A stretch of 64,000 bases of DNA, taken from assembly GCF_964019385.1 (NCBI RefSeq), contig NC_088654.1:2806550-2870549 (forward strand). The letters are read 5' to 3'. Made by a program: the position numbers and the translations under genes. Source of the DNA: Sycon ciliatum. Its lineage: Eukaryota > Porifera > Calcarea > Leucosolenida > Sycettidae. Numbering within the stretch: the stretch's first letter is position 1; the number at the start of each line of letters is the position of its first letter. Below, in pieces: positions 32,634 through 64,000 of this stretch. The notes below the pieces were generated by a model. The model saw nothing but the letters and a program-made list of their open reading frames with translations. It was not told the DNA's origin and did not search any database.

Positions 32634-34087
32634 ATTGGGAACTTGTTGCCTGGAATGAGGGAAGCAGTGATGCAGTGCATTGGATTTTCGTCATGGAAAG
32701 TTGCATGATTCAGGCAAACGGTTCACTTTGCTCAGGAACACTGACCTCGTATTAATATTGCTGCCTCGCTAAAAACTGACGGAGACGTTGTGAAGGTTTA
32801 TCAACTGATCAAGGAAATGTTTTCAAAACTGAATAACGAAAAAGCACCACTTTATCTCCATGGATATCTGTGTATTTCCAAGTGAAACGTGCCATGCATG
32901 TGTAATGCACATTTTTTCCCCTTGCTCGACTGGGCAAACCTTGTTCACACCTAAACACCTAATCACTCTAAAACCGTATTTGCTAATCTATCATACCCCA
33001 GATGTATTTGTTTTACAATTTTACATTGAGTGAAATTACGAGACAAGCGGGATAGTTTCTCAACATCAAATGCTAGATCAAGATATAGCAGCATTGTGCA
33101 CAGCACAGCCCTGAATGGAGTGAATGCCCCATCGGCCTCTTGGTGTGTCAAGTGGCTGTTTTGCGGCGGAAGATGCTGACAGAAGGCGCAAGCAACATCA
33201 ATGTACGTGTTAAACAGGTATGGCGGCCTGGTGTGGCTGTGTGCAACGAGCTGGCAGGACAGTGATTGCCTCAAGGGCATTTGGGTCTGCTGCTTAGGGG
33301 CTGCTGCGTTGGCTTCTTTGTTCTTTCCCTGTCACGTCACTGTGGGACAAGCAGCGGAAGTATATTTTGTTTTTTGTGGCACATGCAATAACTAAGTGTG
33401 CGTTCTTAAAACCTCTCGGAAAAGCTGGAGACTTCTACGAAAAGTTCGCTGTTCTTATATTCTCTCCGACTTTTAGGAGGCTCTCCAAAGCTCTACAAGC
33501 TCTCCAAACTTCAGAGGTGGTTGAAACTTGGAGATTCCTGCGGTTTGGGATCAGTGTATGCGAACTACGGCTAAAAGCCACGCGTTCATCATGAGTGTAC
33601 ACATTTCCCTTTTCGCATACGCACATACATTCATCACTCAAGATCGCGGCCCCTTTGGCGCTTCACTTTGCTTGACATGTGCAAAATATCTCCGAATTCT
33701 TCGAGACCCATTCTTGAGTAATCCCAGTTTCTTCGACTTCTCTTTTCTTCTTCTTCTAGAAGCTAGAGAATATAAGAACGCACCCTAACTTTTCTGGTGT
33801 TAGACTGACGGCTGTTTTTTGCCCCCCCCCCTCTTTCACACGTGCTACCTGTTCCTGTCCCAGCCATGAGCGCGTGTCGTTATCACCTGACCTTTTTATC
33901 ACTTTTTATCACTTTTGTCACTAGGGTATGCCACGTTTCTTTGCCGAATGAGCGCAATTGCGTAGCCGTGTAAAGATCAGTCTACTCCTATTATGCTTTC
34001 ATTCAACATCATGCCTCCACTCATGAGCTCAGGAGGAGCGAAACAGCTGTCTAGAGGGTCATTGTTAATATCAATTTATACACCGGA
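32634..34087. other. Duplicated intronic DNA, no gene recognised
   Basis: Short frames here recur in the duplicate (46,312-47,346) but are not conserved in a coding manner and match nothing I recognise. It contains tandem AAAGCTCTCCAAGCTCTCC motifs near 33,480-33,520 and a C-run at 33,821-33,830. Confidence 0.5.
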
Positions 34088-44157: not shown

Positions 44158-47100
44158 ACATGTACATGTACATGTATGAGCTAAAGTGAAAGTAGTACAT
44201 GTATATGTTTTGCAGGGTCGTGGGCAACTGGCCATGACTGCTCGTGCGCGCCTGCGTCACGGCCCGTGGGCATTTCCCAAATCGGCCGGTCGAAACATTG
44301 GCCGAAAAAAGTGGTTTTGAAGAAATCATCGATCTTTTAGCCGAATACGCAATTTTCGCACTGAATTCGCCGAAAATTGATGTTTTAGTGCCTCAATAGG
44401 ATGCAAATACAATTTCTGTAGCCATTATCGGCGAAAGGTGGCTGCGATTTTAGAGCCGAATTTCCACCTTTTACAGAAATTTTCAACCGATTCTGGCGAT
44501 TTTTTCCGCCGATCGAAAAGCCGAAAAGGCCAAAATAAATGGCCGATTTGGGAAAGGCCTATTGGCAAGGTGTTTGTCTGAGGGTCATATCAATGCACAT
44601 GTATCAATGTAACATCTGCTTGATTCAGCTCGGGCTATATATGCGCTACGGCAGGCCAGGATCCTAGGAGCAATTCGCATGCCTGGCTTTTGTAAAAAAA
44701 TGAAAAAAACTGCACCATGGTCGGAAAGTTTTAGGTGGTTCGTTCGAACCCCCCGACCCCCCCCCCCCGGATCCGCCCCTGCACTGTATCTATAAATTCT
44801 CCATCCCACACTGCTGACACGGAATGACAAGTACGCTACCCAAGCCGTACCTCTTCTCTTCAACACAATCAATGAGCGCCAGAGGTTTACCACATTTTTC
44901 AGGAACTCGATCGATCGTTTGAGCTTGCGAAGCGTCCCCCTCCTCGGCTTCTTGAATCGTCCAGTACGCAGAATGCAAGGTCGCGTCGTGGGCGACGGAT
45001 TACTCTCCCGCATCTTCATCTCCATGACACGTCACCAGGAGAACCAAGCTATCCAAAAACCGCCAATGCCAAAACAAATCCGCAAGTAGTAGTGGCTGAG
45101 CTTCTTCCTCAAATCTTGTCTCGACCCGAGCACGCGCTGCGAGGTCATGGGCAAACTACTTACTCGATTGTTCATGATCGCGCCCCATTTTTCCACTCCG
45201 AAAGGCATTATTTTTCAGAAAAAAATCGGAAATCCAAAATGGCGCTAACCGTCGCGAATCCCCTTAATAGCAAACCCTTTAGAGATCTGCCCTGTAATGT
45301 ATTCTTTCTTGGCACTTCTCAAATCTCACTTGATTGGAATTTTCCATTTGCTTGGAGCTCCGTTCACAAGGCCATAGCATAAAATTCCTCTTACTAAAAG
45401 TTAAACTAAATCTTGAAGCTCAAATCAATTGTCACCACTATACAATCTTAATCAGAAACACACAGGATATCTTACCGCATTTGCCCATCACAGTCACCGT
45501 GCCAAAAATGTCGCAATTCGCCTTAGGTGTTTGTGTGGCTGTATAGCCATCGTTACAAACTCCCCTCAGTTCATTGCTTCCACGTGCGGAATTGAATGCA
45601 TCTCCCTTAAAAATTCCGTTTGGTAAACTTGGTTTTTGACATAATATTATCTTGGCTACCAGCAACACAGTTCAGAAGCAGCATATAGAAAATATGTTGG
45701 TGGGTTGTTTGGTTGGTTTATATGCTACTTCCCAGTACAATTCAAAACCTGCGCTCAGAACTACTTGAAAGTACCACCACTTTTGCAAACAATGGGGTTG
45801 ATGGGAGAAAGGTGTGCGATACACAACATCCCTGTGTCTTAGTACGGAGGCTTTACCCAACTACAGCAGGTAGATATAGCGAGGTGGTCCAAGACCATGA
45901 TTGAGAAATAGAGGGTACCAGGTTTAAGTCCTGCTTGGAAGCAGAAGGGCTTTTTTCCAGCCGTGCTGCGACCCAGACTTAATTGGGAACTTGTTGCCTG
46001 GAATGAGGGAAGCAGTGATGCAGTGCATGGGATTTTCGTCATGGAAAGTTGCATGATTCAGGCAAACGGTTCACTTTGCTCAGGAACACTGACCTCGTAT
46101 TAATATTGCTGCCTCGCTAAAAACTGACGGAGACGTTGTGAAGGTTTATCAACTGATCAAGGAAATGTTTTTCAAAACTGAATAACGAAAAAGCACCACT
46201 TTATCTCTATGGATATCTGTGTATTTCCAAGTGAAACGTGCCATGCATGGGTAATGCACATTCTTTCCCCTTGTTAAACTGGGCAAACCTTGCTCACACC
46301 TAAACACCTAATCACTCTAAAACCGGATTTGCTAATCTATCATACCCCAGAGGTATTTGTTTTACAATTTTACATTGAGTGAAATTACGAGACAAGCGGG
46401 ATAGTTTCTCAACATCAAATGCTAGATCAAGATAGAGCAGCATTGTGCACAGCACAGCCCTGAATGGACTGAATGCCCCATTGGCCTCTCCATGTGTCAA
46501 GTGGCTCTTTTGCAGCGGAAGATGCTGACAGAAGGCGCAGGCAACATCAGTGTACGTGTTCAACTGGTATGGCGGCGTGGTGTGGCTGTGTGCGATGGGC
46601 GGGCCGGACAGTGATTGCCTCAGGGGCCTTTGGGTCTGCTGCTTAGGGGCTGCTGCTTGGGTCTGCTGCGTTGGCTTCTTTGTTCTTTCCCTGTCACGTC
46701 ACTGTGGGACAAGTACAGTCAGCAGCGGAAGTATATTTTGTTTTTTTGTGGCACATGCAATAACTAAGTGTGCGTTCTTAAATCCTCTCGGAAAAGTTGG
46801 AGACTCTCCAAAAAGTTCGAGAGCTGTTCTTATATCCTCTCCGACTTTAAGGAGGCTCTCCAAAGCTCTCCAAGCTCTCCAAACTTCAGAGGCGGTTGAA
46901 ACTTGGAGATTCCTGCGGTTTGGGATCAGCGCATGCGAACTATGGCTAAAAGCCACGTGTTCATCATGAGTGTACGCATTTCCCTTTTCGCATACGCACA
47001 TACATTCATCACTCAAGATCGCGGCCCCTTTGGCGCTTCACTTTGCTTGACATGTGCAAAATATCTCCGAATTCTTCGAGACCCATTCTTGAGTAATCCC

Positions 47101-57110: not shown

Positions 57111-57140
57111 CTTGTTTTACAATTTTACATTGAGTGAAAT

Positions 57141-57159
57141 AGATGACTTGCACAAAGAT
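57141..57159 (+). repeat. ISL2EU left terminal inverted repeat
   Basis: AGATGACTTGCACAAAGAT, exactly inverse to 63,780-63,798. Preceded by the AT target duplication. Confidence 0.9.
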
Positions 57160-57319
57160 TGTCTGGGTTCGAGACAGGGCAAGTGGTCCGCGAGGTCGAC
57201 CTTCTCAGCTCTGACCTTTGAGACTTTCGCCTTTTTCTATTATTTAGTTTTGCTTGACGAACCGTGATACAGTTTACTTAGTCTTTTCGGCAAGCGTTGC
57301 GTTGTTTGGTTGTATCACC

Positions 57320-58776
57320 ATGCCAAAGCATGACCACTGTTGCGTTCCTGAGTGCACCAGTCGACGAGAGAAGGAACCGAGCCTCTCGTTCCATACGTTC
57401 CCTTCCGAACCCGAACGGAGAAAGAAATGGATTCATGCTATACGTCGAGAAGAAAAGGACGGAGTTTTTACTATCACAGGAAATACTGTAGTCTGCAATA
57501 AGCACTTCGTAAACCTTGACTACTTTCCCGCAGTAGAAGCAGAGTCCAGCGCAAAGCGAGTTTGTCGACGCCTGAGAAAGGACTCTGTTCCGTCTAAGTT
57601 TAGTTTTAGTGCTGCACCAGCTCCAGAGCGACCCTCTCACGAGGAGAGACTACGCATGGGCCAGAAACGCTCCGAGCAGTTGAAGTCCAAGCCAATGAAA
57701 AGGAAGAGGGGAGAGACCGAGCGTGAGAGGCAGCTGACCTTAGAGGTATCCGAGTTGAAGAAGAAAACAAGCGTGCTGTAGAAGCGCTGCGAAGTCCTCA
57801 GAGCTGATGTCGTACTGCTGAAGTCTCAGTTGTTCCGATATAACAACATCAAGGACAACCCTGAGCAGTTGAAATACCTCACTGGACTTTGCCCAGAGAC
57901 TTGGCATTGTTTGTGGACATTTCTGAAGCCCTCTGAGTCCAATATAATGAGTGAGAAAGCATCACAGACCTTGGCGCAAGGTCGCAAAATAGCACCAGGG
58001 AGTGGCCGGAAGTCACAGATATCTCTTGATGACCAGCTGCTAGTGACGATGATGCGGCTCGGACTGGGTCGCATGGAAAATGAACTTGCGTACCTGTTTG
58101 GTTGCAACGAGGCTACTGTATCCCGTATATTGAAGAAATGGCTGAACTACATGTATCTCCGTCTGGGCATGATCCCCCTGTGGCCATCATGGGAGGATGT
58201 GGAAACGTCAATGCCAGAGTGCTTCCGATGCACATATCCGAGCACATTCATCATTTTGGACGCAACAGAGCTGCGCTGTGAGGTACCATCTGCATTGGAT
58301 CTACAGTCAAGCAACTACTCCACTTACAAGTCCATAAAACAGTAAAAGGACTTGTTGGAGTATCACCAAACGGTGCGTTCACTTTCATCAGCCAGCTTTA
58401 TACTGGCTCCATCAGCGATCGCCAGCTCATCATTGAGTCCGGCATATTGTCGTATCTGGACTCCGTACCACCCGGTAGAAACATCATGGCAGATCGCGGG
58501 TTCAACATTCAAGATTTACTCGTAAAGCAGCAGCTCATACTCAACATTCCACCGTTCAAAGGGTCGCGGACAGCCATGACAAAAGAAGAGGTAGTGAAAA
58601 CGCAGAAAATTGCGACTGTACGCATCCACATTGAGCGCTGCATTGGTCGAGTGAAGCGCCTCTTCAGGATATTCGACAGGGTGCTACCGCTAACTCTCTA
58701 TGGCTCCATCAATCAGATTTGGACGGTATGCTGCCTGCTAACCAACTTCACCAATCAGATAGTCCCCCAAGAGTAA
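57320..58776 (+). pseudogene. THAP-DDE transposase (one stop, one frameshift)
   Basis: The likely start is the ATG at 57,320 (MPKHDHCCVPECTSRREK), opening a THAP zinc finger (C-x-x-x-x-C, SFHTFPSEPERRKKWIHAIR, then VCNKHF). A basic linker and coiled coil end at a TAG (57,779-57,781). The same frame continues with FRYNNIKDNPEQLKYLTGLC and a helix-turn-helix (GRMENELAYLFGCNEATVSR). A one-base loss near 58,332-58,335 shifts the frame. DDE residues: D in IILDATE (58,259-58,261), D in MADRGF (58,492-58,494), E in IHIERCIGRVK (58,633-58,635). The inverted partial copy at 58,925-59,575 has GAG where this has TAG, indicating a recent nonsense change. Confidence 0.85.
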
Positions 58777-58924
58777 TTTCTGTCGTGTCCAAAATGAAGA
58801 ATGTGCCGGATATGTGCATCGGAAGCACTCAACCCGGACGGAGATACGTATAGTTTATTATTCAATATACGGAATACACGGTGGCCTCGTTGCAACCACA
58901 CAAGTACGCAAATTCATTTCCCAT

Positions 58925-59575
58925 GTGACTCAGTCAGAGCCACACCATTGTCATTAGCAGCTGGTCATCAAGATATATATATCTATGACTTCCGGCCACT
59001 CCTTGGTGCTAAATATGTGACCTTGCGCAAAGGTCTGTGATGCTTTCTCACTCAATATATTGGACTCCAAGTCTCTGGGCAAAGTCCAGTGAGGTATTTC
59101 AACTGCTCAGGGTTGTCCTTGATGTTGTTATATCGGAACAACTGAGACTTCAGCAGTACGACATCAGCTCTGAGGACTTCGCAGCGCTTCTCCAGCACGC
59201 TTGTTTTCTTCTTCAACTCGGATACCTCTAACTACTGAAGGCCAGCTACTTCTCACGCTCGGTCTCTCCTCTCTTCCTTTTCCGTGGATTTGACTTCAAC
59301 TACTCACCATGTTTCCACCCGATCCGTAGCCTCTCTTCAGGATCGGTTTGCTCTGCCAGGAGCTGGTGCAGCACTAAAACTAAACGTTCTCAGGCGTCGA
59401 AAGTATCACTTTGCACTGGATTCTGCTTCCACTGTGGGAATGTGCAGACTACAGTATTTCCAGAGATACAAGATTTCCCTCATTTTCATCTCCATGTACG
59501 GCATGAATCTATTTCTTTCTCAGTTCGGGTTGGGAGGGAACGTATGGAACGAGTAGCTCCGGTTCCCTCTCTTAT
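58925..59575 (-). pseudogene. Inverted partial copy of the transposase gene
   Basis: Read on the minus strand, it matches about 57,375-58,075 of the transposase gene with deletions (for example, about 34 bp after GCCCAGAGACTTGG) and scattered changes. The stretch from GAGGTATCCGAGTTGAAG through CAGAGACTTGG is nearly identical, including a GAG where the forward gene has a stop. Transcripts crossing both would fold into a long hairpin. Confidence 0.85.
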
Positions 59576-60063
59576 TGTTTGGTGCTTTGTGAACCATTAA
59601 TATACATTTCTTGCATTGATCAATCTTTTCATAGATCTGCAAGACATGCATTGCGCTTCTCTTTCCAAATGTATGTTGTTTTTCAGTTCTGTTATGTGAG
59701 TTGTGTTTCCAACATTTATCAACTTTGCCACACGCAGATCACTCACCACGGACAACAGAAGTCAAGTCACATCAAGGTACCCGTGATTTTTGGTCATAGA
59801 ACTCATTTCACGAGCAATGGTTTGACATTTCTTATCCCATGTTTGTAATAAAATATTGCACAAGGTCGATGATATGAATGATAAAATTTATAGGATTCCA
59901 GCTGTTAGTAAAGAGAAGCTTGCGCAGGAGCCTGTGTCATGTACAAGTACATGTAGTCACAATGCCAGCATGCGGCATGGAACACAACAAGGTAACATTC
60001 CACCAAGCAAAATTTCCGTGTGTGCGTGGTGTCCGAGTTGGGTTGGGGAAATGTTTTACATAA
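59576..60063. other. Region between convergent ISL2EU genes
   Basis: No gene recognised. AATAAAA near 59,849 could serve as a polyadenylation signal for a plus-strand transcript. Confidence 0.4.
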
Positions 60064-60357
60064 TGGCGGGATCAGTGGACTTTCAAGAATGAAACTTGAC
60101 CGACGAGACATGTCGGGTTGGATCGTCAAACAGGATTTTGGGACAATGAAAGGAGTAAAAGAACTGAAGCCTGATTATGATAATCAACAGCTGCATCTAA
60201 TGGCACATCAGCGAGTAAAGCACGGCTATCTCCGTGACTATGGCTATCAAACAGAACAAAGCGATTACAAGCTGCAAAGCAGAGGATCAAAAAGGAGAAT
60301 GGTGCAGTCACAAAAACACCATCATAAAATGCTGGATTGATCAGCCTGAGTGGAAAC
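60064..60357 (-). repeat. Tandem duplicate of protease-exon 3' end
   Basis: Matches 60,402-60,683 in direct orientation. The minus frame carries CFAACNRFVLFDSHSHGDSR and LLADVPLDAAVDY, a second copy of the DSH-containing segment, lying downstream of the stop of the main gene. Confidence 0.82.
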
Positions 60358-60407
60358 AGAGACATCCTCTGTCAGTGGAGTAGGGACATATTTTTCATCT
60401 GGCAGGA

Positions 60408-62036
60408 TCAGCGGACTTTCAAGAATGAAACTTGCCCAACAGGAGATGTAGGGTTGGTATCATTAAACCGGATTTCCGGATAATGAAAGGAGAAAAAGAA
60501 CTGAAGATAATCAACAGCTGCATCTAATGGCACATCAGCGAGTAAAGCACCGCTATCTCCGTGACTATGGCTATCAAACAGAACAAAACGCTTACAAGCT
60601 GCAAAGCAGAGGATCGAAAAGGAGAATGGTGTAGTCACAAAAACCCCACCATAAATACCAGAGGGATCAGCCTGAGCGAAAACAGACATATTCTCTATCA
60701 GCCCTGCAAAAGATTCTGCATTCGGCCTGACAAACACCTCCCGGGACACTTCCAAGTTCAAAGCCTCAATCTAGACAACCTCATCAGTGCTCAGCAACCT
60801 GTTTGTGTTCAGTGAGTCATACGCTGTATTGCCCTGCCGCATGGCTCTGCACATCGCATCTTTGCCAAGGTCGACTCCGCCTGTGAGCAAGACCTGCTTG
60901 ACGAAAAGACAAGCAATGATCGTGCATGCATTGCTTCCATTTCGACCGTCGATGGTGTACTGCGAAAGGTCACTGGTCAGGCACAGCTCATGGTCATGAA
61001 AAGGATTTTCATCCTTGGAAGCGGAACGGGCACTGGCTACGTCTGAGGTGGAGGACATTGAGGCTTTGAGCTCGGAAGATAGCTCTGGGGTAGCATTTGG
61101 GGGCACAGATCGCTCGCGCAAATCAAGATACGGAACTGCGCGTGTTACGTAAAATGCTACTGCTGGACGCAGGATTGACTCATGCCAAAAAGAAGGCTCA
61201 AACAGCACGCGCTCTAGATGGACACTCTCACCTAGCCACACCACAAAATCACACCACTGGAGATTGCACACACCAAGCTGAGCCTGAACCTGGAAATAAT
61301 ATGCATGACTCGTGTCCAGGGAAGGACAGCCCTTTGACAAGGTGAGACAAAAGCCTGCCTCACCTGCTGCATCCTCCACCGACTTGCCGTGCTTAGAATG
61401 CGGACACTTGACTTCCAGCAGGCTGTAGACGGGATGAGCGGACGGATCTCGCAACATGCCATCGGGCGATGCCCCGATGTAGCGGAATTCTTGGTGTAGA
61501 CAGAGACCACAATGCCTCACATCCACTGGGCATCCCTGCCTCTTCTTTAATGCAACGTAGCATTGCACAGCGTTATCCTCATTTTTTTCTCCCATGCTGT
61601 ACGGCAGCAACTTGGGCCAAGGAATGACCATCGAAGATCGTGCGGAGTAGCGACTGGTGGCCAGTTCTGCATCTCACAATCCGCTTCATGCTTGATGCTG
61701 TGACTGTGCATCGGTGCAAATCTTGCCATTCAGCTGATGATGCCTGCCCACGTGTCCTTGCTTCAATGGCATGCGCCTCACGGATTGCTATTGGCCATGA
61801 GTGGTCTGCTGTGCCTTCATGGTATGCGGGCCATGGAAGACAGGGGAAATGCTGAGTGGAGCTTGTCTGAAGCCTCTTTGTTGGTGGATCCGCCGGTAGC
61901 TGTGGCTGCTGGTGCCACAAGGTAGATGCAACTGGGACCAGGCCGTACTTCGACTGTGTTGTTGGGAAGTTTGTGCGCAGCAAAGGCTTCCATGCACTGC
62001 GTGATGATGCTGCTTCGCGTAAATCTCGCACGTCAT
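60408..62036 (-). pseudogene. YqaJ nuclease-cysteine protease exon 3
   Basis: The acceptor GCGCTATAG|ATGACG joins in phase 1 to exon 2. VTASSMKRIVRC and LLRTIFDGHSLAQ lead to the YqaJ/lambda-exonuclease-like PD-(D/E)XK fold: RYIGASPDGMLRD (about 61,457-61,490), SLLEVKCPHSKHG (about 61,385-61,425), AYYFQVQAQLG (about 61,265-61,300). The tail has TIDGRNGSNACTIIA (Cys, about 60,925) and FVLFDSHSHGDSG (about 60,560-60,590), a Cys plus D-x-H pair as in OTU/C76-like cysteine proteases (inference). Lesions: an extra A in a 7-A run near 61,585-61,591 shifts the frame, and a TAG at 60,771-60,773 cuts off the D-x-H segment. Confidence 0.8.
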
Positions 62037-62590
62037 CTATAGCGCATTAAACAAGTGAAGAAAGAGGGGCAGCAGAGGCTCTCAGTGGTCGGAGAAAGTT
62101 ATGATGATTGATGATGAGAGTAATTTACAGCTGAAGTCTGGGAGCACATACACCAGTGAGTAGAAGGATTTTTGGCAGTGACAACATAAGATCATAGTAC
62201 CCACCATGAAGCGACTCTCAACCCGAATTTGCAAGTCTTACACAATCCTTGGTTTACAATACAACATGCAGCCATGAGCGAGGTCATAACGTGATGATAC
62301 CAAGCACACCCAGACTAGAATGCCAGGCGCAAGCATGCAATGACTGTCCCTTCCCCAAATGTGATTTGAACAGTAGCCTGGGAGCAAAAGAAGAATTATT
62401 AATGTTCAGTTTCCCCCTGTCATCTCCAAAGACACTGCGACACTATGATCTGAATGCACCCAGTGATAAACTTCTCATTATCATACAGCACTTTTGTTGT
62501 TAATATGGTGCCAGGTTTATCGACAGCTCACTTGTCGTACAAATAAAAAGGAAAATTATGATTACTATGTCCCTCTCTGTGTTAACTCAC

Positions 62591-63315
62591 CAGTAGATAT
62601 ATGCCGCATCTCAGGCCCACGAGCATCGTATAGGCTGCAGCGAACCGGGCGGCCTTTGCGGGATTCGGCTGCACGCGGTTTCTCTACGACAACATCCATG
62701 ACCGGGCGAGACTCTATGGTTCGCTTGCGAGGACCCCAGCTCTGTGGTAGGGATGTCCTGCTCACAGCCTCGGACTCTGCTGTCGCTTGTGTGCTGTTTC
62801 GGTAAGTCTGAAGGACTAGCAGAACGGCGAGCACATGCGAACACAGTCCGTCGCAACCTCCTGCCACACACTCGCACCGCGCATATCCAACAGATGTCAT
62901 TTTCTCGTCATGTTTTTTTACTATTATCTTCTGGTTGTACCGAGTTGACTTCTTCTGTGTAGCCCAGCATTTACTCATCACATAGCACTCAGTGTCTGGC
63001 GGAGTACTCCAGCATACGGCAACATTATGTACATAGCCACCGAAAAACAGTGCTTCTGCCCTGTCTAGGGGTCTTCTAACCAGCACAACATCAGGTTGCT
63101 CCGACATTTCGCTGGTCGGACAACGGGCCGCTTTTCCGGACTCCATGAGGTGGCCAAATATCGTAGATGATGTCACAACAGGGAAGGATGACGGTTCGAT
63201 TGACCATGCCGCGCTTTCCGAAGGAAAGCGAACAGCCTCGTCACCCTTCCCTGCGTGTTCCGTTGTCGAAGGCTTACTGGGAGCGGCATCTTTGTTGTCC
63301 TTGTAGAAAAGAGCA
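62591..63315 (-). CDS. SWIM-domain exon 2 of ISL2EU nuclease gene
   Basis: 725 bp from acceptor TTCTCTTTCTCAG to donor ACTG|GTGAGT. Entering in phase 2, it reads ALFYKDNKDAAPSKPSTTEH, then SSTIFGHLMESGKAARC, FFGGYVHNVAVCWS and IIVKKHDEKMTSVGYARCEC. VAGGCDGLCSHVLAVL follows: the C-x-C-x8-C-x-H of a SWIM zinc finger, a DNA- or protein-binding module also found in Mutator-type transposases. The frame stays open throughout. Exon lengths (152, 725 and about 1629 nt) sum correctly to one reading frame once the extra A in exon 3 is discounted, giving about 834 residues. Confidence 0.78.
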
Positions 63316-63417
63316 CTGAGAAAGAGAATACCACACAGAAAAAGAAGCCAAACACCGATATTTAGTATTTTTTACTCGAGCGATTCTTGTTTCAACTATA
63401 GTTTACTTTGCACTTAC

Positions 63418-63569
63418 CGTTCGAGAAGAGCCGCTTTCCGTCCAGTAAGTACAGCCCCATTCTTGGTGAGAAAACGCTTTAGATCAGCAACCTTCCATGA
63501 AGGATTGGGCAAGCTGGCGTCATCATGCTCGTCACCACAGGAAGAGCTCTTGGCTTCCGGTTCCGCCAT
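63418..63569 (-). CDS. SAP-domain exon 1 of ISL2EU nuclease gene
   Basis: The ATG at 63,569 opens MAEPEAKSSSCGDEHDD, followed by SWKVADLKRFLTKNGAVLTG and RKAALLER, a SAP motif (two helices that bind AT-rich DNA). Donor CGAACG|GTAAGT leaves phase 2, matching the exon 2 acceptor. An upstream in-frame Met at 63,680 is possible, but the later ATG gives a protein beginning just before the domain. It sits about 230 bp inside the right end, leaving space for a promoter. It would target the fused nuclease to DNA, perhaps element ends (inference). Confidence 0.78.
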
Positions 63570-63779
63570 ACTCGTCGCCCAACTAACCACGGCAAAAATC
63601 CATTGCCAAAAAATGCATCTTCGAAGCTTCGAGAGGTACATACATGTCATGCATTTTCCGTGCATGTAATTTTCAGTCATGATGACACACAGCTACTAGG
63701 CCTAGGGTACCGCGTCACGCGTGTACCCCTACAAGCATGCAGTATCCTGAGAGTTTGCCCCGTCTAAGGCGCGGCTCGG

Positions 63780-63798
63780 ATCTTTGTGCAAGTCATCT
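63780..63798 (-). repeat. ISL2EU right terminal inverted repeat
   Basis: ATCTTTGTGCAAGTCATCT, inverse of 57,141-57,159, followed by the AT duplication at 63,799-63,800. Confidence 0.9.
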
Positions 63799-64000
63799 AT
63801 TACGAGACAAGCGGGATAGTTCCTCAACATGAAATGCTAGATCAAGATATAGCAGCATTGTGCACAGCACAGCCCTGAATGGACTGAATGCCCCATCGGC
63901 CTGCCCATGTGTCAAGTGGATGTTTTGCAGAGGAAGATATAATTGTATTTTAACGGGCATGGCGGCGTGGTGTGGCTGTGTGCGACGGGCTGGCAGGACA
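63799..64000. repeat. Third copy of the segmental-duplication sequence
   Basis: ATTACGAGACAAGCGGGATAG onward matches 33,036-33,250 and 46,383-46,600. Its left continuation lies at 57,112-57,140, on the other side of the ISL2EU element. It continues beyond the window. Confidence 0.85.

Follow-up and report, generated by a model that had tools for sequence, protein, structure and literature searches.

A putative tegument-type deubiquitinase on the YqaJ nuclease protein of an ISL2EU transposon family in the sponge Sycon ciliatum

What a cut-and-paste transposon might do with a second protein that unites DNA-targeting, nuclease and protease modules is the question raised by a locus in the calcareous sponge Sycon ciliatum. 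The locus lies in a window of 64,000 nucleotides (the whole stretch analysed; NC_088654.1, positions 2,806,550 to 2,870,549) of a 538 Mb assembly of 313 contigs. We identify it as a degenerate copy of an ISL2EU element, whose relatives probably encode a second protein composed of a SAP domain, a SWIM-like motif, a lambda-exonuclease-like YqaJ nuclease and a VTD deubiquitinase, which would shield the transposition complex from host ubiquitin control. This reading builds on observed features, namely the element borders, the target site, the domain order, the VTD fold of a relative, conserved Gln, Cys, Asp and His residues, open-frame copies, sequence constraint and near-identical copies at different sites. 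ISL2EU elements with YqaJ and VTDs in Helitrons are already known; the VTD on an ISL2EU nuclease protein is apparently new.

The terminal inverted repeats (TIRs) of the window element match perfectly over 19 bp, or 22 bp if the palindromic flank is counted, and the AT target-site duplication (TSD) lies inside AATT at all five insertion sites read (the window, its copy L011, and the elements C11, C3 and C12). Both paralogous empty sites in the window are continuous across the junction and identical to the joined element flanks around it (82–83% overall). The preliminary description had reported these termini, the AT duplication and the two empty sites, and all of them hold. Three full-length copies of this family were found. 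L010, 210 kb from the window element, has the same flanks and 99.96% identity (C13:2863690 and C13:3073831) and represents either a recent segmental duplication or an assembly duplicate. L011, on contig C1, is 98.6% identical but lies between other flanking sequences and has an AT duplication of its own. Given the empty sites and this last copy, the locus is a mobile element and not a chance arrangement. It is assigned to ISL2EU, as first proposed, by its AT TSD in AATT, its THAP-HTH-DDE transposase (HTH, helix-turn-helix) and its second gene with YqaJ. The same traits, including the target A/AT/T, characterize the ISL2EU group of PHIS/Harbinger-like transposons in passages of Han et al. 2015 (PMC4482050). 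Compared with that account, the window TIRs begin with AG where GG is usual, and the second gene of the window family adds SAP, the SWIM-like motif and a VTD. The terms "SWIM" and "SAP" have no occurrences in the main text of that paper, and its passages on the second gene of these transposons state the role of that gene as unknown.

Behind the nuclease, the preliminary description had seen a Cys...D-x-H tail resembling an OTU or C76-type protease. Owing to the frame change in exon 3 and the TAG ahead of the D-x-H half (Table 1), no single frame reaches that half in the window, and the window copy does not encode a complete protease. The structure of the tail was compared in a relative, P0058, where it is a papain-like protease fold whose nearest structures are VTD and M48 (scores 17.1–18.6), the best match being the zebrafish Helitron VTD 8ADD. 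The fold, named beforehand as one possible refutation of the protease reading, thus favors it. The catalytic Cys followed by Asp-x-His is present in all 11 rows of the full-tail alignment, which excludes P0003 and P0015 (Cys half only) as well as P0006 and P0007 (no recognizable tail); the window contains both halves with the stop between them. The tail is in all likelihood a VTD-type papain-like protease domain and a putative deubiquitinase. The protease part of the original proposal survives in this form, of the herpesvirus tegument kind (which we take to be C76), whereas VTD, rather than OTU, gave the best match among those listed. Neither OTU-labeled nor SENP/ULP-labeled entries, the latter representing the C48 fold also put forward for comparison, were among the matches listed in either structure comparison (50 rows), which does not exclude either fold. 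Identity to the herpesvirus large tegument deubiquitinase (Herpes_teg_N) is 11–13%. The best match to the corresponding Pfam family, PF04843, was 0.0074 in P0005, under the cut-off; over the genome PF04843 gave no matches, but the control was also silent in 14 of 14 genomes, which makes this search uninformative. An intron spanning the TAG was considered and is unsupported, as the frame tracks the relative P0001 by eye without gaps on both sides of it.

Open-frame copies in the same genome indicate what the intact protein looks like. A genome search with P0001 returned at least 100 matches (99 of 306 candidates scored). Two of the elements, C11 and C3, match each other at 99.6% across 5.3 kb, lie between different flanks with AT duplications, and combine an open transposase frame of 526 aa with one frame of 808/812 aa containing the SWIM-like motif, YqaJ and VTD; the SAP exon of C11 (9.3e-9) ends at the same phase-2 donor. 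A third family, C12, has AT-flanked inverted ends and an open transposase frame of 513 aa, and its second gene holds SAP (23.2 bits, just under the cut-off of 23.9), YqaJ and VTD in one frame. Between C11 and C12, the nonsynonymous distance (dN) is 0.48 for VTD and 0.46 for YqaJ, with synonymous sites saturated in both; on these values, the tail is under constraint as strict as that on the nuclease. Full-tail proteins are also present in the protein collection, and a protein search with the C11 VTD gave three matches, none of them new. It follows that the SAP/SWIM-like/YqaJ/VTD architecture does exist in the family, although it is defunct in the window copy. The suggestion of one protein joining all these modules accordingly applies to the open-frame relatives but not to the broken protein of the window, from which the D-x-H half is missing. 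Absence of the modules from other family copies, the second refuting outcome named in the preliminary description, was not observed at the level of genomic sequence. Separately, YqaJ matches occur within very long open frames at C7:1488482 (2224 aa), C5:13536957 (3136 aa) and C10:11429084 (1988 aa).

In the window, the second gene is convergent with the transposase gene and comprises a SAP exon, a SWIM-like exon and a YqaJ exon separated by predicted introns. The predicted joins are in phase (2 at the end of exon 1, then 1 at the end of exon 2), as described from the sequence earlier, and the first join yields R-A-x-F-Y, the same residues found there in the relatives P0059 and P0062. The window SAP exceeds the Pfam cut-off (1.6e-5, 24.8 against 23.9 bits), and other loci reach 35.1 bits (C11) and 32.1 bits (L034). 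The YqaJ match is 3.2e-8 in the window and 1.4e-13 in L011. Lambda exonuclease and viral alkaline exonuclease share the YqaJ fold, and PF01771 gave matches, but here the nuclease is joined to SAP, the SWIM-like motif and VTD. The SAP and YqaJ assignments and the module order were thus borne out, whereas SWIM stands as a motif call, a strict C-x-C-x8-C-x-H in the window with C-x2-C replacing C-x-C in all six long tail-bearing relatives. The notion that SAP is special to this element fails, since all five tail-less ISL2EU-type loci of the same genome that were inspected by eye (L036, L038, L040, L045 and L049) possess a SAP-like exon that stops at this intron; they represent three families (L036 with L038, L040 with L045, and the more distant and least clear L049). 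A programmed frameshift at the homopolymer run in exon 3 is unsupported, as L011 lacks the shift and its frame continues.

VTDs also occur on other transposon proteins in the same genome. Searching it with a VTD produced 53 matches (64 of 64 candidates scored), 14 of which lie in stop-free frames of 811–837 aa. The one read (L062; the 13 others are similar frames elsewhere) runs from an HTH-DDE_Tnp_4 transposase, with no THAP match within the frame, through an Ala/Pro/Ser-rich linker to a VTD with Gln, Cys and D-x-H. In the adjoining 1.2 kb, a convergent YqaJ frame ends without VTD (L062/L063, C1:61677400-61681200), and we infer that both belong to one element. Another seven matches occupy open frames of 938–966 aa (L064, C2:16999700-17000700, and six further places), and the hAT dimerization domain (PF05699) was found in seven frames with the same lengths, strands and places at 35.5–37.2 bits (cut-off 21.4). 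That search, with 150 of 422 candidates scored, was silent in 14 of 14 control genomes and over the cut-off in its own genome. The 1.0 kb read of the hAT case contains VTD and the hAT dimerization domain in one frame, with VTD C-terminal. Further VTD matches lie in open frames of, for example, 785, 782, 320 and 289 aa. Judged from sequence, VTDs are carried by three kinds of cut-and-paste element protein in one genome.

Given two further cases in which a VTD is joined to a transposase, the simplest interpretation is that the domain protects transposition proteins against removal through ubiquitin; passages of PMC9741609 suggest the same for Helitron VTDs. The THAP-DDE transposase would cut at the TIRs, while the second protein would sit on DNA through SAP and the SWIM-like motif and its YqaJ nuclease would process the DNA ends. 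The VTD may then remove ubiquitin chains from the transposase, the second protein or local host factors, and the transposition complex would escape host ubiquitin control. The main rival is control of host repair, in which a deubiquitinase tethered by SAP/SWIM beside YqaJ would clear the excision break of ubiquitin marks and thereby steer repair. The fusion of the VTD in this clade to a nuclease with SAP and a SWIM-like motif speaks for it, but the other VTDs reside on DDE and hAT transposases whose portions read here show no fused nuclease, which protection accommodates more simply; we consider host-repair control possible, yet clearly the less probable of the two. Whether cut-and-paste transposition has recurrently taken up tegument-like deubiquitinases as accessories, as their presence on the ISL2EU nuclease protein, on a DDE transposase from an element with YqaJ and on a hAT transposase would suggest, seems to us evenly poised. 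If it has, ubiquitin-dependent removal of transposition proteins would be a general host defense that DNA transposons have repeatedly disarmed. A conserved deubiquitinase on the second gene or the transposase makes it testable whether a DNA transposon must remove ubiquitin to jump. The findings also bring VTDs, which among named transposon classes have been linked to Helitrons in the literature as sampled here, into DDE transposons and add these as further possible sources of the herpesvirus enzyme.

Several observations weigh against protection of the transposition complex by such a four-module protein. Pfam SWIM matched neither the window exon nor any tail-bearing relative scanned; it matched four of six tail-less YqaJ relatives (E up to 10), one over the cut-off, with 1.1e-4 in tail-less P0046. 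PDB sequence searches, with a single sequence and with a YqaJ-containing profile, did not find VTD; A3 gave exonucleases and chance matches, and P0058 nothing useful. The VTD TAG is common to all three full-length copies of the window family. Since the TAG-bearing window element and L011 occupy different sites, it seems that this family could recently move without an intact VTD in cis; the window copy, if recently moved, would have relied on other copies or dispensed with the deubiquitinase. The same genome also contains ISL2EU-type loci with an open second protein ending at YqaJ (L036, 664 aa; L040, 609 aa), so not every ISL2EU requires a VTD. A single VTD gain among YqaJ proteins, finally, appears in 17% of bootstrap trees and is not settled. 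A papain-like protease without ubiquitin activity, similar to YopT or AvrPphB, is an improbable account of the tail, given that such proteases are outscored by the best VTD and M48 structures and that the Asp-x-His order is described in passages of PMC9741609 as a VTD signature. That the element is simply a dead ISL2EU whose tail is decaying and without function is comparably improbable; this holds for the window copy alone, with its broken transposase and second gene, whereas the same genome holds open-frame copies with a VTD constrained like YqaJ and the protein collection holds full-tail proteins.

All 12 VTD-bearing rows fall in one 14-row branch (98/83), together with P0006 and P0007, in a YqaJ tree of 59 of 65 sequences (P0058, P0052, P0053, P0043, P0045 and the short P0015 were left out). 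YqaJ relatives with the SWIM-like motif and without VTD exist. By eye, PHD-like Cys/His tails are present on the YqaJ protein of L049 (2301-1213, minus strand) and on the transposase of L040 (3-1145, plus strand). The C-terminal module seems interchangeable among ISL2EU-type families. None of 64 pattern matches in viral contigs was confirmed as a related locus. Among other genome contigs, 1 of 91 was confirmed, a contig of a Poribacteria metagenome-assembled genome with a YqaJ piece only; as Poribacteria are sponge symbionts, this piece is possibly host DNA.

In the literature, the VTD deubiquitinases described in passages of PMC9741609, those of Helitrons in particular, share the papain-like fold, the Cys...Asp-x-His arrangement and a transposon location with the present domain, which differs in residing on a cut-and-paste DDE transposon and in having a YqaJ nuclease as its partner. 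That source mentions cnidarian VTDs fused to "several transposon-associated domains", and its main text has no occurrences of YqaJ, SWIM, ISL2EU, Harbinger, THAP or words starting with "nuclease". A Helitron with deubiquitinase-like domains is cited in passages of a Harbinger/transposase paper. In the main texts of open-licence PMC literature, we found no report that links YqaJ to either SWIM or deubiquitination in a transposon.

Table 1. Coordinates of the element, its genes and its empty sites, counted from the first letter of the window
Feature	Position	Strand	Remark
ISL2EU element, whole	57141..63798		Window end region; complete transposon with both ends
Left target-site duplication AT	57139..57140		In target A/AT/T
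Left 19-bp TIR	57141..57159	+	Same ends in C1 copy L011
Right 19-bp TIR	63780..63798	-	
Right target-site duplication AT	63799..63800		
Transposase gene	57320..58776	+	THAP 57320-57781; HTH and DDE_Tnp_4 57782-58776
Inverted partial second transposase copy	58779..59585	-	77% over most of length; also in L011
Extra tandem copy of VTD C-half	60046..60375	-	85% like 60383-60701
VTD C-half with FDSHSHG (D-x-H)	60411..60770	-	Beyond TAG; follows P0001 tail to end by eye
In-frame TAG cutting VTD	60771..60773	-	In 3/3 full-length copies (window, duplicate L010, L011)
VTD N-half with QYTIDGRNGSNAC (Gln and Cys)	60774..60990	-	Outer end approximate
Exon 3, linker and YqaJ nuclease	60774..62036	-	424-aa open frame in L011
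Homopolymer run, YqaJ frame shift	61582..61588	-	Exon 3 of window; shift absent from L011
Exon 2, SWIM-like motif CECVAGGCDGLCSH at 62834-62876	62591..63315	-	
Exon 1, SAP domain	63418..63569	-	Donor phase 2
Paralogous empty site 1	46352..46610	+	83% to joined element flanks
Paralogous empty site 2	33004..33261	+	82% to joined element flanks

The THAP-DDE gene announced in the preliminary description is present with all its domains (THAP 1.7e-17, HTH_Tnp_4 3.6e-13, DDE_Tnp_4 1.3e-34), but its frame is broken by an in-frame TAG (57779-57781) and a frameshift near 58325-58350. The transposase of L011 is a single open frame of 509 aa from stop to stop with THAP, HTH and DDE. In two shorter relatives, L012 and L013, the left end is retained (97% and 94%) but most of the interior is missing; they are perhaps non-autonomous. 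The transposase gene and its inverted partial duplicate share 165-nt arms (57740-57904 and 59067-59231) that are 99% complementary, also in L011, and other arms of at least 50 nt at 77–86%. A read-through transcript over this inverted duplicate might pair with itself and become a source for small-RNA silencing.

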